NCBI GenBank assembly: GCA_902587545.1
Contig: CACILL010000005.1
Location: 1-40,260, forward strand
DNA: 40,260 nucleotides
From: an uncultured SAR86 cluster bacterium
Lineage (GTDB): Bacteria; Pseudomonadota; Gammaproteobacteria; Magnimaribacterales; AG-339-G14
Reading direction: 5' to 3'
Part shown: positions 1 through 37,624 of the stretch, piece by piece
Layout: every line of letters starts with the position of its first letter
How positions within the stretch are numbered: position 1 is the first letter of the stretch
Position numbers and translations under genes: made by a program
The notes under the pieces: model-generated
Databases searched by the model: none
What the model saw: only the letters and a program-made list of their open reading frames with translations
What the model was told of the DNA's origin: nothing

Positions 1-1124
1 TTTTACTTGGAGATCTTGAAGCTGCTATTGGTGTATTTGAGCAAATGCTTTTTTATCAACCAGATCTACCTCGAATACGATTGGAACTCGGAGTTCTTTA
101 TTTTAGACTAAACGCATATAGCTCTGCGCAGAACTATCTTGAAAGCGTGTTTGATTTCAATCCTCCCAAAGAAGTTATTGAGAAAGTAAACCTTTTTTTA
201 AATGAAATAAACAAAAATACAATTAAATTTAAAACTAGACATGTTCTAGGTTTTGGAGCTAAGCATGCTAGTAATGCTAATTCGGGAATTGCTACAGATT
301 TCATCGACGTATTGGGTTTAAGATTAATTGTTAATCCAGATGTTAAGCCCTCCAGTGACAGAATCTTTGTGTATAGATACTCTTTACAATCTGTAGAAGA
401 TCTAAAACATCCTAGAGGAAATAAAAGAAATATCTTTTTTGCTGTTACAGACGAACGTCCAGTAAATTTTGATGACTTTGATTTGTCTTCAGTCGTTTTG
501 TCCGTTGGACAGGATTTTTTTCTGGAAAGAACCAATAAATACTTTTCAAACCCAATTGCTAATCTCTCCTATACAGGATCCCAGATTTTCCTTGCTGACA
601 AAGGTCTTTTAAATACACATCAAATGTCATTTCAAATAGGCTCAAAAAGAAATAATAATCTTTATATGGGTTTAAAACTCAATCACGATCATAGAAATTT
701 TGAGAGAAATAAAAATAAATCAGGATATATGAATGGCATAAGCTCGGTCTTTACATATGAGTTTTCAAATAATTTATTTACCAGTGTTGAATACTCATTT
801 AATAAATTCGTTGCCCAAGTTGAATCTGAAGATTTTACGCAAAGGCTTTTTAATTTAAGTCTAATTAAAAATTTTCCGAACGATTACTCTTTAAGTCTAA
901 ATTTTAATCAATTAAAAAAAAATTTCTATAAAGCTTCTTTTCCATGGCCTTTAAGAAGAGATAAAGGAAATACTATTACATTTAATGTCTCTAAACTATT
1001 TTCTCAATGTCACAATATTTCTTTAGGCATAAGTAAATCGAATTTCAATAGCTCCGTAGGTTTGTATGAGAAAAAAAATACTTCAACAAGTGCTGATTAT
1101 GCTTATATTTGTCTTGGAGACTGA
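1..1124 (+). CDS. Slam-like TPR/outer-membrane barrel protein, 5' end outside window
   Basis: The reading frame is open from base 3 to the stop at 1122-1124 and continues upstream of the window, so the first in-window ATG (45) is internal. The N-terminal part is helical TPR sequence (GDLEAAIGVFEQM, then DLPRIRLELGVLYFRL, then PPKEV and a helix). From about residue 75 it becomes alternating beta sequence with the SNAN motif typical of barrel openings. This TPR-plus-barrel plan is that of Slam (surface lipoprotein assembly modulator, DUF560) proteins, which move lipoproteins or secreted proteins across the outer membrane. It is clearly paralogous to the gene at 34037-35371. Each has only two Cys in the available sequence, 33 residues apart near the C-terminus. 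The next gene starts 6 bp downstream on the same strand, so it is a likely cargo. The family call is by pattern, not alignment. Confidence 0.7.
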   Translation, partial: LLGDLEAAIGVFEQMLFYQPDLPRIRLELGVLYFRLNAYSSAQNYLESVFDFNPPKEVIEKVNLFLNEINKNTIKFKTRHVLGFGAKHASNANSGIATDFIDVLGLRLIVNPDVKPSSDRIFVYRYSLQSVEDLKHPRGNKRNIFFAVTDERPVNFDDFDLSSVVLSVGQDFFLERTNKYFSNPIANLSYTGSQIFLADKGLLNTHQMSFQIGSKRNNNLYMGLKLNHDHRNFERNKNKSGYMNGISSVFTYEFSNNLFTSVEYSFNKFVAQVESEDFTQRLFNLSLIKNFPNDYSLSLNFNQLKKNFYKASFPWPLRRDKGNTITFNVSKLFSQCHNISLGISKSNFNSSVGLYEKKNTSTSADYAYICLGD

Positions 1125-1130
1125 TTTTTT

Positions 1131-4100
1131 ATGAAGGTTACGACAATACAAAAAATACTATCAGCGATTCTTTTCTTATTAAGTTGTAATGTTGCTTTAT
1201 CACAAGAGCAAATTGGAGTTGCAGCAGCAGTTAATAAAAATACTGTTGATCTTACTCCAGATGAAAGACTCCTCGTCGAAGCCGGCTATAAAATTATTCA
1301 AAACAGGACCATTGAAACCGATGAAATCGGGAAAGCTCAAATGCTTCTTTTAGATGGAACTTCTTTTGCTATCGGACCCAATTCCTCTGTAACTCTTGAT
1401 AAATTTATTTATAACCCGGAAACATCGGAAGGCTCTTTAGAAGTAAGTGCTAAAGGATTATTAAGGTTGGTTGGAGGTAAAGTTACAAAAAAAACTCCTG
1501 CGTTAATTAAAACCTCATCAGCGGTCGTTGGAATAAGGGGAGGCATCACGATTGTTCAGACAGAAGATGAACGAGTCGATGCTGCATTTATTTTTGGTGA
1601 GGAGATGACTGTAACTCCAAATTTGAATCCCGACGCAAGAACTTCTATTACCCAAGAAGGATTTGTTGTTTCTGTTGAAAATTCTACACAAGATATTCAG
1701 CCAGCAGTTCCTTTAACTCCTGAAAATTTAGAAGACTTTCAAGGAAGTTTCAATTCAAACTCGGAAAGTAATGAATTGAACATGGAAACGGATTCAGAAA
1801 GCCAAGAAACTGATATTGAGGAAGGTAATACTGAAGAAAATAATCAGCCAGAAGTTGATGAAGATTCAATAGAAGAATCTGGTGTACAAGAAAATTCATC
1901 AGATGTTGAACCAGAAGAAATTCTTACTGCAGATGACATTGATACAGAATCTTCGGAAACTCTCACTGAAGAAGACGAAGAACAAGTTTTAGAAGAAATT
2001 CAAGATGTAGTAGATTCTACAGTCGCTGATGAAATAGCCGTTGAACAATCCTCTAGTATAAGGTCTGCTGCTGCTGCAGCTAGAGGAGGAGTTGCTACAA
2101 ATACGCCTGAAGTAGTTGATATTGGACCAACATTTACCATTTACATTGATACCAATCTTGCTGCTACCAATTTTTCTGAAACTCACTCGATAGGAAGTAC
2201 GATCGCATTCAGCACCGTTTGGAGTGATGATCCAGTTACCTATTCGCTTACAGGAAGTGGGAGTGATAGGTTCAGTGTCGATGCTAGCGGTAATATAATT
2301 TTAGAAAATGCCTTTGATTATGAAACGGTAAATACTTTCAATTTAGTTTTCTCAGCAGCTGACGGTACAACGACAGTTACTAAAAATCTTAGTTTTACTT
2401 TGAATAACGTCCAAGAAGAATATGAATCTTTAATTTTGAGATATTCTGGATACTTTAATTCAGTAACCCGAAACGGATTTTCGGCTTCAGCAGTTAGAGG
2501 TGTTTCTGGTTCTGCCCTACCCATCTTATATGAAGAACAAATTGGTACAACTTCAACGACAAATGTCTCGAGCGTATTGTCTTGTTCTGGAGTGAATTGT
2601 TTTATTCCAGTTGAAATCAATGATGGTACTACTTTGAACTGGAAATATTATTTCCCTGTCGAAACAGCAGGAAATCTAGGAAATTCATTTCAGCCAAATA
2701 GCTCATCTGGTAATTGCTGTAACGGAGATGACAACACAAAAAATAGAGGTAAATACGAAAGTGTTCTTGGAACTACAATTTCTACTGTAATCAATGATTC
2801 AGAAATTATTAATTCAGCTTTGAGTAATGACTTTGCTTTCTTAACTTCTAAAAAAGATGAGCAACAAATAAGTTTCAATTCATCAAGTTCAAAAACTTCT
2901 TCTTACAACTTATTTAAGGATCAAATTATTGTGGGAGGCGAGGCTTATAAGTCAGCTGATTTGAATACCTTTACCAATTCCGGGAAAAAGGTGATTGCAA
3001 TGGCAATCATCCCAGATGAAAATCATGCAGAGTCGGCCGGATCTTTAAGCGATTATTTTTATCCAAATTTCATACCAAAAAATATATGGTCTTATGGAGA
3101 TCCTGGCGTTTCATATTGTTCGATAGAGCAGACTACAGGTTGTAATGACGTTGAAAATAATTATTACTTTCATAATTTAGCTCTAATCAATGACAATACT
3201 AGTAATATTTCCTCATCTAGATTTCTTAATAACAATCAATCAGGAGACTTGCCCGAAGGAACTTCTCTATGGTGGCAAGTCATTAATCAAAGTGGAACAA
3301 ATGTCGGACTTTGGGCACAAGCATCTATTAAACATTCCTTCAATTACAGTACTGATCCACATGGTGCTCGGGATGATCAAAGAAGTCTCTTAAATGTAGT
3401 CATTTCTAACTTAAAATTAAAATCTACTGATACCAGCAAATATTCTGCTTCTGATACAGGACTCAGCCTAGATGGTTATCATTATTGGTCCTATCAAGCG
3501 CCAACAAACGTAAACAATAATGGAGCTGGGATAGTATATGGGGTTTCCAATATTGAGTGTGCTACTTCTGCAAACTCAGGATGTTTTTGGGGAAGCGATA
3601 ATTCATTTTCACCATCTGGCATGATGCTAACTTCCTCAGATCCTTACAAATCAGGAAACATGTCATTAAGTGTGAGTTATGATTCTAATTCTGATACCTT
3701 TTCTACAGGAACTTTTAATACTGCAGCAGTTGTGCAGCCCATCGAAATATCCTCGAATAACTTTAGTTCCTCTCAATCCATCAATCAATTCAGATCGACA
3801 AACTTTTATCAAGCTACTTCTGCTTATACTGGTTTTTTAGCAGGCATTTTAGAATTTGATGTTGATGGAGCAGGAAATTCTCAGATTGCTTCAATAGCAT
3901 CACAAAGTAATGCATCAATCACTTTTGATGAAATTAACGATGATGTTCAGATAGTAGCACCTCTTTCAATATCTAGTTTTGCTTCAAATAATTTCACCTC
4001 TAATTGGTCCACAATAGATTCCGGTGTTGTTACCCTAAGTTTTGGAGATACTACAAATGCTGAGGCAAAATCAGCCTACATTTCAAAAGAGGTATTTGCT

Positions 4101-4799
4101 GCAGAGATAATTGATAATGGGATGCAAATCGATGCATCATCAGGCGGTAATAATAACTTAGCTGGGGTAATAGTTTCCTACAACACTTTAGATCAAGCAG
4201 AAACAGATTTTTTAGCTATGCCAAATACAGACTACTCAACATGGGGATTTTGGGCCATGAGTTCTGTAGATTTTTCTCCAAATGCTGGTACTCAGAATGT
4301 ATCGGTACATCTTGCTCCATGGGTAGCTGGACAACTATTAAACGTCACTGATATTCCAACTAATGGAACAGCAACTATGTCTGGATCTGCAATTATGAGC
4401 ACAGCCTTTCGTTTTAACCAATCAGGATCTATTTATGATGTCCATAAATATATCTCTAATGGAAACGTTCAGGTCCAATTCAATTGGGATGCTGGAGGAA
4501 ACTATACGGGTACTTTTTCTTTATCTGATTACGATGAAACAAATCCTATCGCAATAAGTGCGGGTATCACAGATTTCAATTTTAATATCTCTGGTTCTGG
4601 GGTTAGTTATTCTGGTAATAAAACTAATTTTAGTAACGGCTGGGGAGGTAGCGTTTCTGCTCAAGGGCTTCTTTATGGTGGTAATAGTCCTGACGAAAGT
4701 GGTGGCAGGATAAACGTTTCTTTATCTAAAAATGGAGATATAAATACTTTAGGAGCAAATGATTTTTATTTTGCTGAGGGAATATTTTTAGTCGACTAA
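1131..4799 (+). CDS. Large exported FecR-cadherin protein with C-terminal TbpB-like barrel region
   Basis: 1222 aa with a signal peptide (about residues 1-25, cleavage near ALSQ). Residues ~50-160 look like a FecR domain (SFAIGPNSSVTLDKF, SAVVGIRGG). Residues ~215-300 are a very acidic Glu/Asp/Ser linker, and ~330-430 a cadherin-like beta domain (DRFSVDASGNIILENAFDYE). A long Ser/Asn/Gly-rich region follows. The last ~150 residues resemble the TbpB-like lipoprotein barrel: IPTNGTATMSGSA early, then GLLYGGNSPDESGGRINV, compare the known pattern FYGPNAEEVGG. It lies 6 bp after the Slam-like gene, so the two are probably co-transcribed. There is no lipobox, so it would be secreted or held otherwise. 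Its stop overlaps the convergent gene by 4 bp. The FecR call is firm; the barrel homology is by motif resemblance; the exact role is unknown. Confidence 0.75.
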   Translation: MKVTTIQKILSAILFLLSCNVALSQEQIGVAAAVNKNTVDLTPDERLLVEAGYKIIQNRTIETDEIGKAQMLLLDGTSFAIGPNSSVTLDKFIYNPETSEGSLEVSAKGLLRLVGGKVTKKTPALIKTSSAVVGIRGGITIVQTEDERVDAAFIFGEEMTVTPNLNPDARTSITQEGFVVSVENSTQDIQPAVPLTPENLEDFQGSFNSNSESNELNMETDSESQETDIEEGNTEENNQPEVDEDSIEESGVQENSSDVEPEEILTADDIDTESSETLTEEDEEQVLEEIQDVVDSTVADEIAVEQSSSIRSAAAAARGGVATNTPEVVDIGPTFTIYIDTNLAATNFSETHSIGSTIAFSTVWSDDPVTYSLTGSGSDRFSVDASGNIILENAFDYETVNTFNLVFSAADGTTTVTKNLSFTLNNVQEEYESLILRYSGYFNSVTRNGFSASAVRGVSGSALPILYEEQIGTTSTTNVSSVLSCSGVNCFIPVEINDGTTLNWKYYFPVETAGNLGNSFQPNSSSGNCCNGDDNTKNRGKYESVLGTTISTVINDSEIINSALSNDFAFLTSKKDEQQISFNSSSSKTSSYNLFKDQIIVGGEAYKSADLNTFTNSGKKVIAMAIIPDENHAESAGSLSDYFYPNFIPKNIWSYGDPGVSYCSIEQTTGCNDVENNYYFHNLALINDNTSNISSSRFLNNNQSGDLPEGTSLWWQVINQSGTNVGLWAQASIKHSFNYSTDPHGARDDQRSLLNVVISNLKLKSTDTSKYSASDTGLSLDGYHYWSYQAPTNVNNNGAGIVYGVSNIECATSANSGCFWGSDNSFSPSGMMLTSSDPYKSGNMSLSVSYDSNSDTFSTGTFNTAAVVQPIEISSNNFSSSQSINQFRSTNFYQATSAYTGFLAGILEFDVDGAGNSQIASIASQSNASITFDEINDDVQIVAPLSISSFASNNFTSNWSTIDSGVVTLSFGDTTNAEAKSAYISKEVFAAEIIDNGMQIDASSGGNNNLAGVIVSYNTLDQAETDFLAMPNTDYSTWGFWAMSSVDFSPNAGTQNVSVHLAPWVAGQLLNVTDIPTNGTATMSGSAIMSTAFRFNQSGSIYDVHKYISNGNVQVQFNWDAGGNYTGTFSLSDYDETNPIAISAGITDFNFNISGSGVSYSGNKTNFSNGWGGSVSAQGLLYGGNSPDESGGRINVSLSKNGDINTLGANDFYFAEGIFLVD

Positions 4800-7700
4800 G
4801 GCTCGCTGCTTGAAGATTCTTCTTCATTAGAAGAAGATTCATTAGAAGAAGATTCATTAGAAGAAGATTCATTAGAAGAAGATATGTTAGATTCTGTTGA
4901 AGAAGCTTGTGGAGGTTCAAAAACCACTGTGCCGTGAATTACTGAGGGATCGCCATTATTTAAAATTCCCTCTGTCGGCATATTTCCAATAAAATCACTA
5001 GAATCTGAAGAGCCTGTATCTTTAATTAATGCTGTACTCGGTAGATCAGATAAGTTTAAAGCATAGTTTCTTGTGTGAGCCCCTACTTCTTCCTGGGATA
5101 ACTGTTTTAAAAAATCATCTCCTCGAAGTCCGATAACTTTAACTTTTTCTGTTTTTGAGGGATCTATATTTTCTAAAATAGCTCCATCGGGAAGCATAAA
5201 TTCAGAAATACTTCTATAACAAGATCCATTCCAGTCAGAATCGCTTACATATTTCCCAACTTGTTGATCGGTGCACTTATCATAAACACGTCTAGGAAAA
5301 TTCCACAGCTCACCAAAACCTTCAAAATCTAGTTTTATTTTTTTTCCGGCATGAGAAATTCCCGAAAAATTATATTTAATACCTGAGTCAGGAACGGTAT
5401 AAGTAAATCTTTCTGGTGGAGAAAAGTCTATTTTCGCTAAATTAGTTTGATTGTATAAATCGTATCTAACTCTAGTTCTTAATCCAATCCTATAGTGAGT
5501 CAAATCGTTATCGTAAATTTTATTTGGACATAGGTAAATTGCATTTCGATCGTAGACGCGTTCTGCAGGAGAAGCTATTTTTTTAAATCTATGATGATAT
5601 CCATTATATTCATTATTTCCAGTATCGCTATTAACATCTGAATTTCTATCACATTCAATTAAGCTTTTCGCCTCAGCTGTATTTGGTAAAACCCTCATAC
5701 TGAAATCACCGTGGTTTCTTCTGGTATAGTTATCTGTTGTTATTGAGGGATCTTTCTCATAATATTCATAATCTTCTATTTCTTCTTGAATTTCATAGGT
5801 CATACGATCAATTGTCCTTTTTAGCTCTATTCCTCCTGAAGATGGAACATTGACATATATGCTATTTGGCCAGGTTAAAGGAACATTCGATGCTCCAGCA
5901 TCAATTTTATTGTCCGTTATACGTGAATCAGAAATGGTATAAATGGCAATGTCTGACTCTTTTATTCCACCAATGTTATTGTAGTATCCCGCCGGATAAT
6001 CTGGTTCACCAGCATCCTTGATATTATTTTGATTATCATCTCGGTAAACTTGCTCTTTAAAAAATGGTCCTATATTTTTATTAGGTGTGATACTTAAAGC
6101 TCCTTTTTCATAACTAGTATTGCTTGCTCGAATTATTGAACCCATGGTTTGACTCACTTTCAGCGCATCTATACAACGTTCTAAGCAAAAAACACTAGTT
6201 GGTAATTGACTCACAGAAATATTTTTTTCATTTCTTGAAGAAACTCGATCGTTTCCAATTGCATTACTGGGATTTTGAAAAGCTGTAGGCGGAACATGAT
6301 AATTAATTCTATTATCTTCATCCCAAATCCACATTGAAGCTAAATAATTATGTTGAGGGTGCGTCATAGTATTAATCCAATCTGTATTGGTAAATACTAT
6401 TGGGACATTAAAATCAATTTCTCCATTTTGGTTAGAAAAATCCATCCCGCCTGAAATAGTAAAGGTTACAACTCCATCCGATACAGATATCGTTCCAAAA
6501 TATTCAGGACAGTTCCGATCTATAGCATCACAATTTCCAGTGAAATCATTCCCACCATTTAGTAATATTTTTGTTTTTGATGCCCATTGATCAGATTTAA
6601 GCCACCCAGCATAAAATTGAAAAGACATTTTATCGAATTCAACTAATTGATGCCTGGAAGTAGAGATTTCTGTGACTCGATAATAATTGGTTATTAATCT
6701 ATAAAGATTTTCATCGTTTGAGTCATTACTGTTACGCCATAATGTGTCATTACTTACGAAAGCTCTGTCGGAACTGTCTACATTTCCACCCCAATAAGAG
6801 GCATGACCATAAACTGTTTTATCAAGGCCTAAATTTTCAGCTGCGCTTGCTCTAAGTGACATGGAGGCCAAAGGAATGTCATATTTTGTCCCATCGGATT
6901 CTTTGTAAGTACCATATTCCCAGACATGCCTTTTAGCTTTTGTGCTATCGGTACTCCAGCAATGTTCGCCAGTTAATCGGTCTTTCGAGCCTCCCCATAA
7001 ACTAGTTCTTGTCCCACTCGTGTTTATCAAAGTATCAATATCAGACGCATTAAGTTTTGGTCCTTTTTCTATGAAACCATTATTTTGTGACCATTCCATT
7101 TCCTGTGCTTCGATAAATTTTTGACAAAAAATCTTTGCAACTTTATCAAAGTGTCCTTGAACACTAACCGTATAGTAAGAGAGATTATTTAAATTTTCTC
7201 CAGAGTAGTAAAACATTGGAACCGTTAAAACTAATTGAACTTCATTATCATTAAAAGTCATGTAAACCGTTGAGCCGGGATCTTCTTCTCCTCTGTACAA
7301 ATAGCTGACTGTATTTCCAGTTACATCAACAATTCCTTTTTCCATTGTGAGGTTGGCAGGAATGAAATACCCACTAGGCATTGTTATATCGTTTTTATTT
7401 TTTATTTCCCAAGATAAAGTGAACACACCGTTTGGGTTTGCCTCACTGACATCTTCTTTTTGTTCTGTGAGGGCATAAACCAAAAATGGATATAGTCTTC
7501 CACTGTCGTCCGCTAATTCTTGATTAACTTCTACCCAAGATTTTCCTTGTAAGATGTTAGTATCAACAATACCTTCAATCATAGATGTTGCCTTGGTGTA
7601 ACTTGTTGTATCTGTGGTAATTTCGGCATCTGCTGTGGATCCATCTGCGCTAGAAGCTTCTGAAAGAGATGACTCCAAAGCACTATTAGCACCATCAGCA

Positions 7701-7939
7701 GATTCGCAAGAGTCTGCATCAACTAGGGACACATATGCCCCAGCATCAATAAAACTTGACGGATTCATGTTTTTAACAAAACAAATGAGAAAATTTATAT
7801 CCTGTAAGGAATCGTTTGCTAAAAGGCCATTGACATAAAAATCTTTTTTTAAAAGATCAGCATCATAAGTTTGATTAAAAGCTGAGCTACCAAAAATAAG
7901 AGAGCCTAAAAAAAATATTAGATGTTTTTTTGAAAACAT
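4796..7939 (-). CDS. Large exported protein of unknown function with Ser/Asn/Glu repeat tail
   Basis: 1047 aa from the ATG at 7939; a TTG at 7948 is in frame but overlaps the stop of the upstream lipoprotein gene, so the ATG is preferred. The N-terminus is a signal peptide (MFSKKHLIFFLGSLIFGSSA). It has an early Ser/Ala/Asp-rich stretch, then long beta-rich sequence with many Asn, Asp and Tyr and several scattered Cys, consistent with an exported protein with disulfides. The C-terminus ends in a five-residue repeat (SSSNE) of about four copies and then poly-Ser/Glu. No domain is recognised. It follows the 48-aa lipoprotein gene by 5 bp, suggesting coupled translation and possibly a shared envelope role. 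It is convergent with the FecR gene, stops overlapping, with no terminator between. Confidence 0.8.
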   Translation of the reverse strand: MFSKKHLIFFLGSLIFGSSAFNQTYDADLLKKDFYVNGLLANDSLQDINFLICFVKNMNPSSFIDAGAYVSLVDADSCESADGANSALESSLSEASSADGSTADAEITTDTTSYTKATSMIEGIVDTNILQGKSWVEVNQELADDSGRLYPFLVYALTEQKEDVSEANPNGVFTLSWEIKNKNDITMPSGYFIPANLTMEKGIVDVTGNTVSYLYRGEEDPGSTVYMTFNDNEVQLVLTVPMFYYSGENLNNLSYYTVSVQGHFDKVAKIFCQKFIEAQEMEWSQNNGFIEKGPKLNASDIDTLINTSGTRTSLWGGSKDRLTGEHCWSTDSTKAKRHVWEYGTYKESDGTKYDIPLASMSLRASAAENLGLDKTVYGHASYWGGNVDSSDRAFVSNDTLWRNSNDSNDENLYRLITNYYRVTEISTSRHQLVEFDKMSFQFYAGWLKSDQWASKTKILLNGGNDFTGNCDAIDRNCPEYFGTISVSDGVVTFTISGGMDFSNQNGEIDFNVPIVFTNTDWINTMTHPQHNYLASMWIWDEDNRINYHVPPTAFQNPSNAIGNDRVSSRNEKNISVSQLPTSVFCLERCIDALKVSQTMGSIIRASNTSYEKGALSITPNKNIGPFFKEQVYRDDNQNNIKDAGEPDYPAGYYNNIGGIKESDIAIYTISDSRITDNKIDAGASNVPLTWPNSIYVNVPSSGGIELKRTIDRMTYEIQEEIEDYEYYEKDPSITTDNYTRRNHGDFSMRVLPNTAEAKSLIECDRNSDVNSDTGNNEYNGYHHRFKKIASPAERVYDRNAIYLCPNKIYDNDLTHYRIGLRTRVRYDLYNQTNLAKIDFSPPERFTYTVPDSGIKYNFSGISHAGKKIKLDFEGFGELWNFPRRVYDKCTDQQVGKYVSDSDWNGSCYRSISEFMLPDGAILENIDPSKTEKVKVIGLRGDDFLKQLSQEEVGAHTRNYALNLSDLPSTALIKDTGSSDSSDFIGNMPTEGILNNGDPSVIHGTVVFEPPQASSTESNISSSNESSSNESSSNESSSNEEESSSSEP
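4826..4885. repeat. 15-bp tandem repeat, four copies, in coding sequence
   Basis: The unit attagaagaagattc occurs at 4826-4840, 4841-4855 and 4856-4870, with a fourth, diverged at its end, at 4871-4885. Being a multiple of three it keeps frame and encodes the repeated SSSNE pentapeptide at the C-terminus of the exported protein. Copy number can vary by slippage without breaking the frame. Confidence 0.95.
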
Positions 7940-7944
7940 TGATA

Positions 7945-8091
7945 TCAATTAGAGTCTACAGCATCTATTTGATTCGGGAGAGTTCCACTTGGACCTAAGA
8001 AAATAGAAGTTTGTCCTGAAGAGGATTGTTTTGAAGGATCCTTACCGCAAGACAAAAGGAAAAAAATCATAAAAATTAATAATAATTTCAT
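7945..8091 (-). CDS. Small lipoprotein, 48 aa
   Basis: A short reading frame from the ATG at 8091 to a TGA at 7945-7947 gives 48 aa. It starts with a Lys and a hydrophobic run (MKLLLIFMIFFLLSCG) that ends in a lipobox, LLSC, with the acylated Cys at residue 15. The mature part is Ser/Gln/Gly-rich and only about 33 aa. Position +2 is Gly, not Asp, so outer-membrane sorting by the Lol system would be expected. It lies 24 bp after the CMD-family gene and 5 bp before the 1047-aa exported protein, so it sits inside a leftward operon and probably couples translation to the large gene. A clear signal sequence in the right frame and tight spacing support it as real. No function is recognised. Confidence 0.8.
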   Translation of the reverse strand: MKLLLIFMIFFLLSCGKDPSKQSSSGQTSIFLGPSGTLPNQIDAVDSN

Positions 8092-30706: not shown

Positions 30707-33187
30707 ATGATTTTATATAATTTGTTATTTAGAATAGCCCTTATTGGATTTCTTTCAATATCTATTTTTACCGAAGAAGATAATAAAAAAGAAGAAAAAG
30801 ATGATGGTCTTGAGTCATTTCTAGAAGACTTAACACACTTTCCGGGACTCATTGATGTGTATAGAAATAATGATAATGGAAAGGTTTATTTATTAATAAA
30901 AAAAGAGCAATTAGAAAAAGAATTTATTTATTTTGCTCACATTTTAGATGGGATTGTAGAAGCTGGAACTTGGAGAGGAAATTATTTAGATAATGGGATT
31001 ATTAAATTCATAAAGTATTTTGATCAGATCAGAATTGATCGAGTAAATACTGCATATGTATTTGATGAAACAAATCCTTTATCAAAATCGAAAAATGCAA
31101 ATGTATCTAATTCCTTAATAGATTCACTAAAAATTGAAAAAAAATCTAAAACAGAAGATAAATTCTTGATTAATGTGACTTCATTGTTGCTAAGTGAAAG
31201 TTTGTCTAAAATAACTGTTGCTCCCTATAAAGAAACTCCTAAAGATAGTTTCAAAATTGGTTCAATATCCAAGAATAAATCTAGTATTAATGCAGTATTT
31301 AATTATCCTGAAAATACTGACTTTGAAATTAATTTTGTTTTTTCAAATCCCACTAATAAACCAATAGAGAATCAAGATTCAAGAAATAATTCAATATCCC
31401 TTAGATTTAGCTTTATTAATTATCCTGAAAATAATTTTGAACCCCGAATAGAAGATCAAAGAATTGGTTTCTTTTCTGAAAGAAAGACTAACTTATCTTC
31501 AACAGATATTACGCCTTATGAAGATTTAATAAATAAATGGCATCTTGAAAAAAAAGATGTAGATAAAGAAAAATCTATCCCAATTAAGCCTATTACTTTT
31601 TGGATAGAAAATACCACCCCTTATGAGCTTAGACCAATAATAAAAAAAGCAGTTTTAGCTTGGAATATTGCCTTTGAAGAAGCAGGCTTCATTGATGCAA
31701 TAGAAGTAAAAATTCAACCTGATGATGCAGATTGGTCCGCAGGTGATATCAGGTATAACGTTCTTAGATGGACTTCATCTCCTAACCCTCCCTTTGGCGG
31801 ATATGGTCCTAGTTTTACGAACCCTAGAACTGGAGAAATTCTAGGAGCAGATATTATGCTTGAATGGATTTATCTTACAAATAGAGTGAGATATTCTGAA
31901 ATTTTTGAAAATCAGGAAATTCGTGGAGATAATTTCTGTCATAACTCTTTAATAAAACAAGAAAATAGAATATTTGGAAAATTAGCCACAGAAGCTTTAG
32001 ATTTAAATGAAAATGAAATAAGTAGATTATATGAGGAGGACTTGTACCAGTTAATATTGCATGAAGTTGGTCATACCTTGGGTCTAAATCATAATTTTGC
32101 TGCTTCGACACTTCATAATAATTCTGATGTGCATAATCCTGAAATTACTTACAAGGAAGGTTTAAGCTCTTCTGTGATGGACTACCACGCTCTTAATATA
32201 GCTCCTCTTGGCACCCAACAAGGGCAGTATGCAGATATAAAGCCGGGTAAATACGATATTTTAGCTATTAAATATGGATATTCCCCAAACCTTTCAAAAA
32301 AAGATTTAGTTGGTATGTTGGAAAAATATTCTTCTAAAGAATATTTATTTGGAAACGATGGAGACGATATGAGGTCTCCTGGAAAAGGTATTGACCCTAG
32401 AATAAATACAGGAGATATGACAAACGATCCTGTTGGATATGCTAAAGATAGAATTATATTGTCGCAAAATTTAATTCCAAAACTTTACGATACCTTAAAA
32501 ACAAAATCGGATAGTTGGGAAAGTATTTATCAAGGATATAGAATTCTTTTAAGACAGATTCATACATCAGCAGAAATTATTTCCAGACAGATAGGTGGTG
32601 TTTATATAAATAGAGGTGTTATGTCAGATAAAAACCAAGATCCGTATGAAGTTGTTCCTTATGAAATTCAGAAAGAATCTATAAAAATACTTTCTGAACA
32701 TTACTTTGATAGTGAAAAATTCATCCTCCCTCCTAATATTGCAAACAAGATGCAAAGAGAAAGAAGGAGTTTTGATTTTTTTGGAAAAACTGAAGATCCA
32801 AAATTTCATAACATGATTCTCAAAGGACAGAAAAAAGTTTTAAAACACTTTACAAATTCCAAAGTCTTAAAAAGGCTTACTGATACTTCCTTTTACGGAA
32901 ATGAATATCTACCGAACGAACTATTTAGAGATCTAACTTCGTCTATTTTTGATGAAAGTAAATCTCGTAAATTGAATGGTGTAGATCAAAATCTACAAAC
33001 ATATTATTTAAAGAGGCTGATAATGATCTTTAAGAGTGGAAATTTTGATTCTCCTTCAATATCAGCAAGTTTATCTTCACTAGAACGAATAAAGGCTTAT
33101 ACTTTTTCACCTTCGTATGATGAAGCTACAGAAAATCATAAGAAGTTAATAAGATTAAGAATTGAAAATCTATTAAAAACTAGTTAA
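30707..33187 (+). CDS. Zinc-dependent metalloprotease, DUF5117/DUF4953 type
   Basis: 826 aa with an N-terminal signal or anchor helix (LFRIALIGFLSISIF) and an acidic linker. The zinc site is HEVGHTLGLNH at residues 452-462, the HExxHxxGxxH form of metzincin-like proteases, preceded by LEWIYLTNR and followed by SSVMDYHALN (the Met-turn pattern). N-terminal DUF5117-like and C-terminal DUF4953-like regions fit this group of large, exported bacterial metalloproteases, whose targets are mostly unknown. Divergent from the COMT-like gene by 26 bp; convergent with purU, overlapping by 8 bp. Confidence 0.88.
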   Translation: MILYNLLFRIALIGFLSISIFTEEDNKKEEKDDGLESFLEDLTHFPGLIDVYRNNDNGKVYLLIKKEQLEKEFIYFAHILDGIVEAGTWRGNYLDNGIIKFIKYFDQIRIDRVNTAYVFDETNPLSKSKNANVSNSLIDSLKIEKKSKTEDKFLINVTSLLLSESLSKITVAPYKETPKDSFKIGSISKNKSSINAVFNYPENTDFEINFVFSNPTNKPIENQDSRNNSISLRFSFINYPENNFEPRIEDQRIGFFSERKTNLSSTDITPYEDLINKWHLEKKDVDKEKSIPIKPITFWIENTTPYELRPIIKKAVLAWNIAFEEAGFIDAIEVKIQPDDADWSAGDIRYNVLRWTSSPNPPFGGYGPSFTNPRTGEILGADIMLEWIYLTNRVRYSEIFENQEIRGDNFCHNSLIKQENRIFGKLATEALDLNENEISRLYEEDLYQLILHEVGHTLGLNHNFAASTLHNNSDVHNPEITYKEGLSSSVMDYHALNIAPLGTQQGQYADIKPGKYDILAIKYGYSPNLSKKDLVGMLEKYSSKEYLFGNDGDDMRSPGKGIDPRINTGDMTNDPVGYAKDRIILSQNLIPKLYDTLKTKSDSWESIYQGYRILLRQIHTSAEIISRQIGGVYINRGVMSDKNQDPYEVVPYEIQKESIKILSEHYFDSEKFILPPNIANKMQRERRSFDFFGKTEDPKFHNMILKGQKKVLKHFTNSKVLKRLTDTSFYGNEYLPNELFRDLTSSIFDESKSRKLNGVDQNLQTYYLKRLIMIFKSGNFDSPSISASLSSLERIKAYTFSPSYDEATENHKKLIRLRIENLLKTS

Positions 33188-34034
33188 ATATTACGGTTTT
33201 TGAATTATTAATGAATATTCGTCTTTCTATATGATATTTAACTGCTTTTGCTAAAGTTATCGATTCTAAATCTCTTCCTATAAGTTCTAAATCTCTAGGT
33301 GATTTTGAGTGATCCACCCTTTCAACACTTTGTTCAATAATTGGACCTTCATCAAGCTCTGAAGAAACATAATGAGCAGTTGCACCTAAAATTTTTACTC
33401 CTTTTGAATAAGCCTGATGATAAGGCTTTGCTCCTTTAAAACTTGGTAAGAAAGAATGATGAATATTGATTATTTTCCCATAAAAATCTTTACACATTTT
33501 GTCTGATAAAATTTGCATATATCTGGCTAAAATTAAGAGGTCTATATCAAACTCCTTTAGAATTTTTCTAATTTCTTTCTCAGATTTAATCTTATTATTT
33601 TTTGTAACAGGAACATGAAAAAAGGGGATATCATGCCATTTTGCTATTTTTTCATGGTCTTTGTGATTAGAAATAATGCAAGATACATTCATGGGTAAAA
33701 TACCTGAATCAACTCTATACATTAAATCCTGTAAACAGTGACCTAACTTGGAAACAAATATTGCTGTGTTTGGCTGATAACTTGCTTCTTTAATAGACCA
33801 CTCCATTTTCAAAGATTTACATTCATTTTCAAAGAAGGTTGAAAATTCTTTTAAATCTAATCTTTTTTTTGAGTAGATAAGTTTTGCTCGCATAAAAAAT
33901 AATTTTTTTTCAGGATCTCCATAATGAGCAGAATCTAAAATAAACAGATTAGCTTTGTTTAATGTAGAAGATACTTGAGCGACGATCCCATATTTATCTG
34001 GACATTGAACTCTTAAAATAAATTCATTATTCAT
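33180..34034 (-). CDS. purU: Formyltetrahydrofolate deformylase
   Basis: 284 aa from the ATG at 34034 (E. coli 280); a TTG at 34049 would lie inside the upstream gene. PurU splits 10-formyl-THF into formate and THF, feeding formate to PurT and balancing the one-carbon pool. An ACT domain occupies ~1-85 (LRVQCPDKYGIVAQVSS). The formyltransferase-like domain has IINIHHSFLPSFKGAKPYHQ with Asn190 and His192, and SSELDEGPIIEQ with Asp228; the His-Asp gap equals that of GART. Start is 2 bp after the stop of the Slam-like gene, so the two are co-transcribed with no obvious functional link. Confidence 0.95.
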   Translation of the reverse strand: MNNEFILRVQCPDKYGIVAQVSSTLNKANLFILDSAHYGDPEKKLFFMRAKLIYSKKRLDLKEFSTFFENECKSLKMEWSIKEASYQPNTAIFVSKLGHCLQDLMYRVDSGILPMNVSCIISNHKDHEKIAKWHDIPFFHVPVTKNNKIKSEKEIRKILKEFDIDLLILARYMQILSDKMCKDFYGKIINIHHSFLPSFKGAKPYHQAYSKGVKILGATAHYVSSELDEGPIIEQSVERVDHSKSPRDLELIGRDLESITLAKAVKYHIERRIFINNSKTVIFN

Positions 34035-34036
34035 TT

Positions 34037-35371
34037 TTATTCTGTACAAAGATAATTAAATTTTACTGTCAAACCTTCATTAGAACGTGCATAAAGACCT
34101 ATAGTGCTGTTATTATTCGAGAAGGTTACTCCTATATCCGTATTCCAACATAAATCAATTATTTTGGTGAGTCCGAATCTTAAGCTGATAGATTTGTCCG
34201 ATCTTAATCCAAGAAATGGATCTCTTTCTTCATAATCTTTATTTGAATATCCTACATTTGTTGTGGCAAATGTTGTTGAATTCAACGCTTTTCTAGTACT
34301 AAGATCAAAAGTCCTTTTTATATAGGTTTCTATAGGAGATGTAGCATAGAAATGTTCAAAGTTTGTCTTATAGCTTAGAAAAATTCCACTTTCAGGAAAA
34401 ACTATGCTTCTTGATAGACCCACTCCAATAAAATCTCCTGTTTTATTTTGAGATCCAATGAAATCTCTTTCATCTATATAAACATTCAATCCGAAAGAAC
34501 CAGAATCCTTTAAAGTAGCTTTCCAATCAATATCAACTCGATGTGATCTAAGAAGTTCACTTCCTTGAAGAAAAACCTTGAATGCAGTTAAAGATGGTAC
34601 AAAAGATTGATTGGTAACTCCAAGCTTCTCATTATCGAGCATGTTGAATTTTCTATTTAATGAAAAAACTCCTGTAGAAGAATCAAAATTAGAGAAATCT
34701 CTATAAACCTGTCTAGATAATGAGATTACGTAATTAATAGTATCTCCTCTTGGATGTCTTAAGTCTTGAGTAATTTGAGATGAAAAAGCCGAAGTAATAT
34801 AAGTATCGGATTTAGGTTTATTTGAAATATTTAAATCAATGGCTCCTAAGTCTCCTACAACAGTTACCACATCAGTATCTAAACCAGCATTTGCATTTCC
34901 TGACAATCCCATTCCAAAAGATAATACGGACTGTGTTTTGAAAAGTTTTGTTTCATTTTCAATTTGTTCAAGAAAAACTTTAACTTTTTCTTTAACCTCT
35001 TTAGGAGGGTCATAATTTTTTATATCATCTAAATATCTCTTGGCTGAAGCGTAGGCCCCTAATCTAAAATATAAAACTCCTAGCTCCAGCTTAATTCTTG
35101 GGAGATCAGGTTTATAAATCAACATTTGCTCAAAAATTCCAATTGCTGCTTCCAAATCTCCAACCAATATAGATAAATTTGCATAATTAAAAAGATTTTC
35201 TAAATTTGTAGGATCATCTATTATTGAATCAAATACTCTTCGTCTTTCAGCCTGAGTTGCTTCTAACTCCTGAGGATCAGTTATTGACGGAGGGACGTTT
35301 TGACTAAAAATATTTAGACTTAAAAAAAAGAAAAAGAAGGAAATAGTTAAAAAAATTTGAAGAAATTTCAT
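34037..35371 (-). CDS. Slam-like TPR/outer-membrane barrel protein (second copy)
   Basis: 444 aa, full length. Signal peptide (MKFLQIFLTISFFFFFLSLN...S), then a short linker and TPR-type helices at ~55-150 (FNYANLSILVGDLEAAIG; DLPRIKLELGVLYFRLGAYA; PPKEVKEKVKVFLEQI). From ~155 it is a predicted barrel: SGNANAG opening strand, alternating strands, and NNSTIGLYARSNEGLTVKF at the end. Slam proteins have this plan and a similar length (~490 aa). Two Cys only, 33 residues apart near the C-terminus as in the copy at 1-1124. It has no cargo gene next door; purU follows it. It is divergent from the CHASE2 cyclase. Confidence 0.75.
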   Translation of the reverse strand: MKFLQIFLTISFFFFFLSLNIFSQNVPPSITDPQELEATQAERRRVFDSIIDDPTNLENLFNYANLSILVGDLEAAIGIFEQMLIYKPDLPRIKLELGVLYFRLGAYASAKRYLDDIKNYDPPKEVKEKVKVFLEQIENETKLFKTQSVLSFGMGLSGNANAGLDTDVVTVVGDLGAIDLNISNKPKSDTYITSAFSSQITQDLRHPRGDTINYVISLSRQVYRDFSNFDSSTGVFSLNRKFNMLDNEKLGVTNQSFVPSLTAFKVFLQGSELLRSHRVDIDWKATLKDSGSFGLNVYIDERDFIGSQNKTGDFIGVGLSRSIVFPESGIFLSYKTNFEHFYATSPIETYIKRTFDLSTRKALNSTTFATTNVGYSNKDYEERDPFLGLRSDKSISLRFGLTKIIDLCWNTDIGVTFSNNNSTIGLYARSNEGLTVKFNYLCTE

Positions 35372-35440: not shown

Positions 35441-37624
35441 ATGAATTTTTCTAAAATAGGTAAATATTTATTAATACCATTCTCCATATTTGTAAGTTTT
35501 ATCCCCATTCTTGACCCTTTTAATACTTTTTCTAGCTTGAGGAATACCGCATTTGATTTCTTCCAAAATATTTCACCCAGAGAGTCGATTACTTCGGATA
35601 ATGTCATAGTAATTGATATAGATGAGAAGTCATTAAGAGAACTAGGCCAGTGGCCCTGGCCAAGAAGTGTTCTTGGAAAATTAGTAGATAAAACTTACCA
35701 ATCTGCTTCTCTAGGCTTTGATATTGTTTTTGCTGAATTTGACAGAACAGGTTCTAAAGAATTAAAAAAACAATATAGAGAAAATCTATCTCTTCTTAAT
35801 GTTCTAAATGAAGTACCTGATAATGATGATATATTTGCTAATTCAATAAAAAATCATGGAACTGTAGTTCTAGGAGCGATTCCAAGTAACTCATTAAACA
35901 ATTCTTTTAAAGCGAAATTTGGTCTCATAGAGCAAGGCGACAATCCCAGAAAATTTTTACAAAAATATTCGGGAATTCAAACAAACCTAGACAATTTAGA
36001 TAATTCTGCCAAAGGAATAGGCAGTATGAGTATTGGAAATAATGATTCAATAATTAGAAGACTTCCTCTTTTTGAAAATATCAATGGATCATTAATACCT
36101 TCCTTGGGATTAGAGATCTTAAGAGTAGCAATTGGTGCATCCACCTATCAAATTAAATCATCGAATGCTTCTGGAGAAACTGCCTTTGGAGAAGAAACTG
36201 GTATAAACCATGTCAAATTAGGAAATTTAATAATTCCAACAAATGAAGACGGGTCTGCATGGATTCATTATTCTAAAAAACCTGTAAAAACTATCCCTGT
36301 TTGGGAAGTTCTAAGTTCTGATTATTCTCCAGATTACTTTGAAGGAAAAATTCTAATCGTCGGAACCAGTGCACCAGGCCTATTTGATCTAAGATCTACA
36401 CCTCTTAAAAATAATGTTCCTGGAGTAAATATAATTGCAAATTTAACAGATCAAATCCTATCAGGACAATTCCTTAAAAGACCTGATTGGATGTTTGGCC
36501 TAGAACTAGTGACTGGAATGATTTTGGCACTAATGATTACTTTTTTTATCCAATCTTCTGGGCCTTTAGGAGGATTATCTGTCTTTATTTTTGGGAATGT
36601 TATTTCAGTTCTAGGCAGTTATTACATTTTCACTAATTATAGTTATCTAATAGATCCTATCTCTCCACTGGTAATTTGTCTCATATGTTATTTAGTTGTT
36701 ACTTTCTTTAATTTTCTTTTTACAGAACTAGAAAGAAGTAAAGTAAGAAATGCTTTTTCTCAATATATGTCTCCAGTGATGGTTGAAAAATTAGCAAAGT
36801 CAAGTGACTCACTCAAACTTGGAGGGGAAAGAAAAGAAATGACCTTTCTATTTTCTGATATAAGGGGTTTCACCTCAATTTCTGAAAAATATAAAGGAGA
36901 TCCAGAAGCTTTAACAGACTTAATAAACAATTTGTTGACTGTTTTATCCAATGAAATATTGAATTATCAGGGAACCATTGATAAGTATATGGGAGATTGT
37001 ATTATGGCTTTTTGGAATGCTCCATCAGATGATCCAGATCATAGAGAAAAATCCATTGATGCTGCATTTGCTATGAGCAAGGCTTTAGATAAATTAAACG
37101 CAGACACAAATAGATCTGATGAAGATAAATTATCTGTAGGGATTGGCATTAATACCGGTGAGTGTATTGTTGGGAACATGGGTTCAGATAAAAGATTTGA
37201 CTACACGGTTCTTGGAGACGCTGTAAACCTAGCTTCTCGCTTGGAAGGTCAATCAAATAACTATGGGATGCAAATTATTCTTGGGGAAGGATCAATAAAA
37301 GGTCTTTCAAAAGCTAAGTATTTAATTTTTGAACTTGATTCAATAGCAGTAAAGGGGAAAACAGAGCCCGTGACTATTTATACAGTATTTAATAGAAAAG
37401 AATTAAAAGACGAAAAAGAAGCTTTCTTAGATGACCATAAAAAGTTTTTAGACAATTATAGAAATCAAGATTGGGAAAAAGCTAGAGAACATATTGATAA
37501 ATATAGGTTTTCTAAACCTGAATTTACATTATACTACACGCTATTTTTAGAAAGGATTGATGCATTATCCAAACAAACCTTGCCAAAAGAATGGTCTGGA
37601 GTCTTTATCGCAGATACTAAATAA
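35441..37624 (+). CDS. CHASE2-domain class III adenylate cyclase
   Basis: 727 aa. An N-terminal TM helix leads a large extracytoplasmic CHASE2 sensor (about 35-335, with VIDIDEKSLRELGQWPWPR), then three TM helices (about 343-430), then a class III cyclase domain (about 455-645). Cyclase motifs: FLFSDIRGFTSISEKY with the first metal Asp, YMGDCIMAFWN with the second, and RFDYTVLGDAVNLASRLE with the Asn and Arg that stabilise the transition state. The DYTVLGD form is typical of adenylate over guanylate cyclases. It would sense an envelope signal and make cAMP. Its end overlaps the DUF481 gene by 65 bp. A CNBD channel lies 2 kb away. Confidence 0.9.
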   Translation: MNFSKIGKYLLIPFSIFVSFIPILDPFNTFSSLRNTAFDFFQNISPRESITSDNVIVIDIDEKSLRELGQWPWPRSVLGKLVDKTYQSASLGFDIVFAEFDRTGSKELKKQYRENLSLLNVLNEVPDNDDIFANSIKNHGTVVLGAIPSNSLNNSFKAKFGLIEQGDNPRKFLQKYSGIQTNLDNLDNSAKGIGSMSIGNNDSIIRRLPLFENINGSLIPSLGLEILRVAIGASTYQIKSSNASGETAFGEETGINHVKLGNLIIPTNEDGSAWIHYSKKPVKTIPVWEVLSSDYSPDYFEGKILIVGTSAPGLFDLRSTPLKNNVPGVNIIANLTDQILSGQFLKRPDWMFGLELVTGMILALMITFFIQSSGPLGGLSVFIFGNVISVLGSYYIFTNYSYLIDPISPLVICLICYLVVTFFNFLFTELERSKVRNAFSQYMSPVMVEKLAKSSDSLKLGGERKEMTFLFSDIRGFTSISEKYKGDPEALTDLINNLLTVLSNEILNYQGTIDKYMGDCIMAFWNAPSDDPDHREKSIDAAFAMSKALDKLNADTNRSDEDKLSVGIGINTGECIVGNMGSDKRFDYTVLGDAVNLASRLEGQSNNYGMQIILGEGSIKGLSKAKYLIFELDSIAVKGKTEPVTIYTVFNRKELKDEKEAFLDDHKKFLDNYRNQDWEKAREHIDKYRFSKPEFTLYYTLFLERIDALSKQTLPKEWSGVFIADTK

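Follow-up and report, generated by a model that had tools for sequence, protein, structure and literature searches.

At the start of a 40,260-nucleotide stretch of DNA from an uncultured SAR86 cluster bacterium (hereafter the window, which is the entire contig G000:C5; the draft genome has 1.13 Mb and is 85% complete), a gene for a protein resembling Slam (surface lipoprotein assembly modifier) is followed by a gene for a putatively exported FecR-domain protein of 1222 amino acids (aa), and the locus raises the question of whether the first protein exports the second. A preliminary description, made from the DNA sequence, had suggested a new export system for large adhesin-like proteins. The locus is read here, with good though not full confidence, as a divergent Slam-type exporter of the type 11 secretion system (T11SS) with a FecR-adhesin cargo and a CHASE2-domain cyclase as third member. 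The adhesin-like cargo of the earlier suggestion is thereby supported, and the exporter is a divergent branch of a known system, not a wholly new one. The CHASE2 cyclase and a second Slam-like gene, both in the same window, are additions to the preliminary description.

The positions of the open reading frames (ORFs) bear out the described arrangement of a Slam-type gene and, 6 bp later, the gene for the 1222-aa protein, whose ATG (at 1131) has a GGAG upstream. The ORF of the Slam-like protein (SlamA) runs off the contig start, and its N-terminus is therefore missing; no 5′ end was found on the other contigs of this genome (G000) or of G034, and the SlamA-bearing contigs of both genomes break inside the gene. 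SlamA matched the Pfam family SlipAM (DUF560, PF04575), as had been expected of it, with 23.8 bits (24.1 in another scan; cut-off, 22), and was 36% identical over 374 aa to the second and complete Slam-like protein, SlamB. Both proteins matched the tetratricopeptide (TPR) family TPR_19 above its cut-off and TPR_Slam (PF24575) below it (SlamA, 16.7 bits; cut-off, 35.2). A structure model of SlamB (m9783a3a292d5), built from 23 sequences with a predicted local distance difference test score (pLDDT) of 85.0 and a predicted template modelling score (pTM) of 0.63, consisted of TPR helices (33-140) and then long strands, and the closest barrels in VIA were CymA (Z 22.4) and then OmpG (Z 21.3), both of which are 14-stranded. 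Slam itself has been published as a 14-stranded barrel (excerpt of PMC5449769). No Slam structure was among the PDB matches listed for the model, which counts neither way. SlipAM matches were obtained for 10 of the 23 members of the SlamB alignment (A4; best E, 6e-7), and a single hhalign comparison of this alignment with 16 Pfam-defined Slams gave E 4.7e-36 over 373 columns, covering the TPR region and the barrel. By sequence and model, SlamA and SlamB are divergent Slam/T11SS-type proteins with a predicted exporter role.

The FecR domain of the downstream protein, the predicted cargo, was found above the Pfam cut-off (PF04773, 25.9 bits; cut-off, 24). The cadherin domain that had been named with it is weak here (PF00028 at residues 369-413, 21.6 bits, below the cut-off of 28.8; PDB cadherin matches in the weak-repeat stretch with E of 8e-4 to 8e-3) but strong in a giant relative (L147), which has eight cadherin stretches (E 4e-83). 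By eye the N-terminus resembles a signal peptide with a Cys inside, which is absent from the giant homologues whose starts were inspected; there is no clear lipobox, and the protein is apparently unlipidated. An ordinary FecR anti-sigma regulator was considered and set aside for a protein of this length with a signal-peptide-like start and a TbpB-like end; no sigma-factor search of the neighbourhoods was made.

The two C-terminal motifs of the preliminary description were located at residues 1075-1087 and 1179-1192. The TbpB_B_D family (PF01298) matched residues 1075-1194 with E 0.016 and 16.2 bits, below the cut-off of 26, and of the 44 members of the C-terminal alignment four matched this family (best E, 0.016) and two FHBP_C. 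Neither phmmer nor a profile search found TbpB in the PDB; the barrel is thus a hint by sequence, and the claim rests on a fold model. The C-terminal residues (881-1222) are module-like, in that several giants carry extra residues between this part and the preceding conserved part, and they were modelled with AlphaFold2 without templates (m57ecd0bc6fe8), using 44 sequences from the window and the named loci. The model (pLDDT 83.6, pTM 0.87) is a pedestal followed by an 8-stranded barrel, with the eight strands within the final 165 residues of the protein. Among the Foldseek matches with E ≤ 0.001, 34 of 35 rows were TbpB, LbpB, fHbp or NHBA, the remaining one being 2ich. The VIA matches were headed by the TbpB C-lobe (Z 13.9; 198 residues, 4.1 Å), NHBA (Z 12.4; 141 residues, 2.4 Å), HpuA (Z 11.1) and fHbp (Z 10.4-11.3), and 49 of the 50 VIA matches listed were titled TbpB, LbpB, NHBA, fHbp or HpuA, the other being a 'Surface Lipoprotein' (3hoe). 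The TbpB-like barrel proposed from the motifs is thus reproduced in the model, in both strand number and nearest structures.

The pair recurs in relatives, as had been anticipated. The SAR86 families f2 and f3, which are in the same order as the family of the window, gave 30 Slam loci, three of which are cut inside the Slam gene and were excluded; each of the 27 testable loci has a FecR gene or a cargo C-terminus downstream. In 17 of them the C-terminus lies 5.1-6.8 kb away on the Slam strand, with frames long enough to reach the Slam gene, and in 10 more a FecR gene starts directly after the Slam gene before the contig ends. In 15 named loci the two genes overlap by up to 13 bp or are separated by up to 88 bp. 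Within the family of the window, cargo matches were found in 24 of 40 genomes (including G020, with a weak 81-residue match only) and SlamB relatives in 20 of 40; the copy of the cargo in G034 is 95% identical, and those relatives that are complete are giants (about 2000-2700 aa), frequently arranged in tandem.

Tandem pairs of these FecR-cadherin giants were seen in L034, L038, L039, L046, L047, L049 and L050. Their repeats may break assemblies, since several further contigs terminate within genes of this kind. FecR giants of SAR86 type were also found on contigs of metagenome-assembled genomes labelled Flammeovirgaceae, Euryarchaeota, Cryomorphaceae, Flavobacteriales and Opitutia (L135, L152, L156, L157, L172, L179 and L180), which are probably mis-binned. 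In G029 (L082, L085, L087-L089, L044 and L168) the Slam, FecR-giant and cyclase genes are all interrupted. Paired decay was considered for this genome and not used, as the purU-like gene and a 523-aa gene of the same assembly are also in pieces, which makes sequencing error likely.

The distribution of the three genes was recorded over 203 genomes of the order (22 genera). Slam and the CHASE2 cyclase were each present in 49 genomes and the cargo C-terminus in 51, and the genera concerned, 6 of the 22, were the same for all three. Slam and cargo occurred together in 44 genomes, Slam only in 5, cargo only in 7 and neither in 147 (Fisher 2e-31, relatedness uncorrected); 11 of the 12 genomes with a single partner are less than 90% complete. 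The cyclase gene in the window is divergent from slamB across a gap of 69 bp, and adjoins that gene and not the FecR cargo gene. Judged from gene order and distribution, the system probably has the cyclase as its third member, a functional partner of the other two.

Beyond SAR86, in five alphaproteobacterial loci a Slam-like ORF immediately precedes the gene of a FecR protein whose C-terminus is related, at 19-24% identity, to that of the cargo in the window. A Slam profile was searched against 397 Pseudomonadota genomes, of which 30, own genome included, had a match; the 37 places outside the own genome correspond to 32 loci after five second pieces of the same gene were merged. FecR was encoded within 3.5 kb of 20 of these 32 loci (0.13 expected), which represent 19 of the 29 genomes and 12 of the 20 families, and strong CHASE2-cyclase profile matches were present in 12 of the 30 phylum Slam neighbourhoods. 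Since this profile had been built from Slams mostly adjoining FecR, the FecR test was redone with Pfam SlipAM in three bands of match strength, with split pieces merged and the own genome and eight places below the Pfam cut-off left out (three of the eight, in G287, G375 and G425, have FecR nearby). FecR was near at least 7 of 22 middling and at least 13 of 29 weak SlipAM matches. When a barrel profile based on SAR86 was compared with the phylum partners by hhalign, the barrel was clear in L220 and L224 and partial in L225 (a 1152-aa ORF). The same test failed two controls positive for TbpB_B_D, L231 (over the cut-off of that family) and L239 (just below it). In L231 (4006-7421, plus strand), a Slam gene (SlipAM, 62.8 bits) is followed by that of a 687-aa protein with TbpB_B_D (40.9 bits) and a weak Lipase_3 match (18.3 bits; cut-off, 22), possibly a lipase-type Slam cargo to judge from these matches.

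The likeness of the pair to Slam/T11SS systems lies in the N-terminal TPR region and C-terminal outer-membrane barrel of the exporter and in an adjacent, putatively exported cargo that ends in a TbpB-like barrel; it differs from them in that the SAR86 exporter barrel is very divergent and linked to FecR, and in a cargo of 1222 to about 2700 aa that apparently bears no lipid. The Slam cargos TbpB, LbpB, fHbp and HpuA (and NHBA, the export of which is Slam-dependent) share the pedestal and 8-stranded C-terminal barrel modelled for the SAR86 cargo, in which, unlike in these proteins, the N-terminal part consists of FecR and cadherin-like repeats and the similarity lies below the Pfam cut-off. T11SS cargos have likewise been described with a C-terminal 8-stranded barrel of TbpB/lipoprotein-C type after a pedestal (excerpt of PMC12282271). 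They carry a Sec signal peptide, and many, not all, have a lipobox; the SAR86 cargo has no clear one.

The association of CHASE2, FecR and TPR genes has been published in another context. A cluster of CHASE2 adenylate cyclase, FecR, TPR and phosphodiesterase genes in Campylobacterota was described as a likely signalling pathway (excerpt of PMC9239204); it resembles the loci of the SAR86 relatives in its linked CHASE2 cyclase, FecR and TPR proteins, and differs in that no Slam or TbpB-like barrel is mentioned in the same excerpt. In Sinorhizobium meliloti, the outer-membrane barrel protein NsrA acts with CHASE2 cyclases (NsrA-CyaK; excerpts of PMC7529298 and PMC13001267), with the difference that there the barrel is given as residues 600-1200 of a single protein. 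In Burkholderia, the 'BiofilmReg' operon (excerpt of PMC5192318) links LysM-FecR and CHASE2 genes in a similar way, a CHASE2 histidine kinase replacing the cyclase; the main text of that paper contains neither the term TPR nor tetratricopeptide. A search of the literature library gave no paper joining FecR with DUF560, T11SS or surface lipoprotein assembly modifier, and neither FecR nor cadherin is mentioned in the main text of PMC12282271 or of PMC8406197. The preliminary description had remarked that a FecR-cadherin protein joined to such a barrel is not known as a described Slam cargo. CHASE2-FecR-TPR clusters have thus already been published as signalling systems; a Slam-like nature of the TPR protein and a Slam-cargo barrel on the FecR protein were not found in print in these searches.

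In the mechanism proposed from these results, the 1222-aa protein would enter the periplasm by a putative Sec signal peptide, and the TPR/barrel protein encoded upstream would recognise the C-terminal pedestal-plus-barrel module and move the cargo across the outer membrane, so placing the cadherin-like part on the cell surface. As there is no clear lipobox, the cargo would then be either released or, more likely, retained through its N-terminal part. The CHASE2 cyclase would probably read the state of the FecR protein or of the exporter, by contact with FecR in the former case, and report it as a cyclic nucleotide. The rates of change bear on the recognition step. Between SAR86 groups, the TPR domain of Slam is 64-75% identical and the barrel 24-37%, and the same holds within the window, where the TPR parts of SlamA (3-212) and SlamB (34952-35371) are 67% identical and the barrels 29%. 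Between f2 and f3 the cargo is 89% identical in the C-terminal module, 78% in the module preceding it, 63% in the FecR part and 51% in the cadherin part, and the cyclase is 59% identical. Recognition in the periplasm would agree with the conservation of both the export module and the TPRs, and the fast change of the Slam barrel may reflect surface exposure. A simple transfer of SlamA together with a g3-type cargo was considered and rejected, the SlamA barrel being about equally far (24-31%) from the Slams of g1, g3, f2 and f3.

If this reading is right, FecR proteins become a concrete candidate cargo class for divergent T11SS members. Most T11SS outer-membrane proteins are without known or predicted cargo, cargo secretion has been verified only within the animal-associated cluster, and T11SS genes co-occur with one-carbon metabolism (excerpt of PMC12282271). 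T11SS would be extended to open-ocean SAR86 with small genomes and tied, by gene order and distribution, to a CHASE2 cyclase, and two questions would become testable: which cargo environmental Slams export, and to which stimulus the FecR-TPR-CHASE2 clusters respond.

Several results weigh against a Slam-type exporter with a FecR-adhesin cargo. SlamA is truncated and just above the SlipAM cut-off, and SlamB had no SlipAM match at E ≤ 1 in the Pfam scan. The exact SlamA-cargo pair was found only in G000 and G034, two of the 40 genomes of the family; in genus g1 the resident SlamB adjoins a purU-like gene, apart from the giants; and five genomes have Slam without cargo and seven the reverse, one of the five being G028 (92% complete), which has Slam and cyclase and no detected cargo. 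FecR was near none of the 31 SlipAM loci of at least 100 bits, among the FecR matches listed, and the Slam-FecR link is therefore a feature of divergent Slams only. In the phylum sample some FecR partners are too short, at 265-284 aa, to accommodate a barrel (adjacent to Slam in L226, L232 and L234, one gene away in L222), and in the longer partners outside SAR86 the barrel was detected by sequence in few, by a test that also missed positive controls. Lastly, families with cargo C-termini about 89-93% identical have Slam barrels of about 30% identity, a poor fit to tight barrel-cargo recognition.

Export and signalling may also be joined in a secretion-coupled surface sensor, in which Slam exports the barrel and the cadherin rod, and the FecR part, remaining in the periplasm, plugs or bridges the exporter and is read by the CHASE2 cyclase; this elaboration is tentative. 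If true, export or the binding of an outside ligand would be reported as cyclic AMP or cyclic GMP, and one machine would both build an adhesin and sense with it, in marine Gammaproteobacteria and other Pseudomonadota. A cross-envelope sensor that exports nothing, with the TPR/barrel protein as outer-membrane part and the FecR protein as periplasmic relay to the CHASE2 cyclase, is unlikely, though likelier than the two further rivals below. It would account for the shared genera of cyclase and Slam in SAR86 and the cyclase matches in the phylum neighbourhoods, for the short partners with FecR only, and for the published CHASE2-FecR-TPR clusters and the barrel protein acting with CHASE2 cyclases (excerpts of PMC9239204, PMC7529298 and PMC13001267). 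It leaves unexplained, however, that the SAR86 partner ends in a fold common to known Slam cargos and that this module, at f2-f3 identities well above those of FecR, is the best-conserved cargo part measured. In S. meliloti, moreover, a FecR protein (SMc02177) and a TPR protein (SMb20495) of the same cAMP regulon, which may or may not be counterparts of those in SAR86, were reported to be dispensable for plant signal perception (excerpt of PMC5498481).

It is improbable that the FecR-cadherin protein surfaces by another route and that the TPR/barrel protein exports, for example, a polysaccharide in the manner of BcsC or PelB. BcsC and PelBC are among the Foldseek matches of the TPR/barrel model, and TPR plus barrel is common to exporters of these types, but there are SlipAM matches, the profile alignment to Slams extends over both domains, VIA places the CymA and OmpG barrels first, and the gene is tightly linked, as one of two, with a TbpB-like cargo. 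Least probable of all is that the TbpB-like barrel is a mere structural end-cap and the pairing an inherited synteny without functional coupling. Common descent or a single loss event could account for the adjacent genes of f2 and f3, but the pair is also seen in Alphaproteobacteria at low cargo C-terminal identity, and in the family of the window, where SlamB and the giants are not neighbours, each genus has either both or neither.

Features of the window that belong to the predicted Slam-type exporters and FecR-adhesin cargo and to the cyclase, with positions in nucleotides
Feature	Position	Strand	Basis
SlamA, Slam-like (T11SS-type) outer-membrane protein, partial TPR region and SlipAM barrel	3..1124	+	PF04575; 373 aa
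Putatively exported FecR-cadherin protein, predicted cargo, 1222 aa	1131..4799	+	PF04773; G034 copy; giant homologues
FecR domain, residues 60-154	1308..1592	+	PF04773
Single weak cadherin-like repeat, about residues 339-429	2145..2417	+	Pfam below cut-off; PDB cadherin matches
Conserved module, residues about 578-870	2862..3740	+	Kept together with C-terminus in most giants
C-terminal export-type module, pedestal and TbpB-like barrel, residues 881-1222	3771..4796	+	AlphaFold2, Foldseek, VIA
8-stranded barrel, residues 1057-1221	4299..4793	+	DSSP of AlphaFold2 model
SlamB, second and complete Slam-like protein, 444 aa	34037..35371	-	Identity to SlamA; structure model
CHASE2-domain adenylate/guanylate cyclase	35441..37624	+	PF05226, 172 bits; PF00211, 85 bits

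Other genes border these features. Convergent with the cargo gene, and overlapping it by 4 bp, is a gene (4796-7948, minus strand) for a 1050-aa protein with a signal-peptide-like start and a Ser/Glu-rich tail; it had no Pfam match at E ≤ 1, and among the compared loci a relative (87% identical) was present only in G034. The end of slamB is overlapped by a purU-like gene with a formyltransferase domain (33180-34049, minus strand), which has the same position in genus g1. Directly after the FecR giant in g1 lies a gene for an ion-channel protein (PF00520, E 2.6e-44 in L051, 4098-4859, minus strand), and in many loci of f2, f3 and g1 the giant is followed by a gene of similar size (e.g. L165, 11098-11832, plus strand), 71% identical between f2 and f3.

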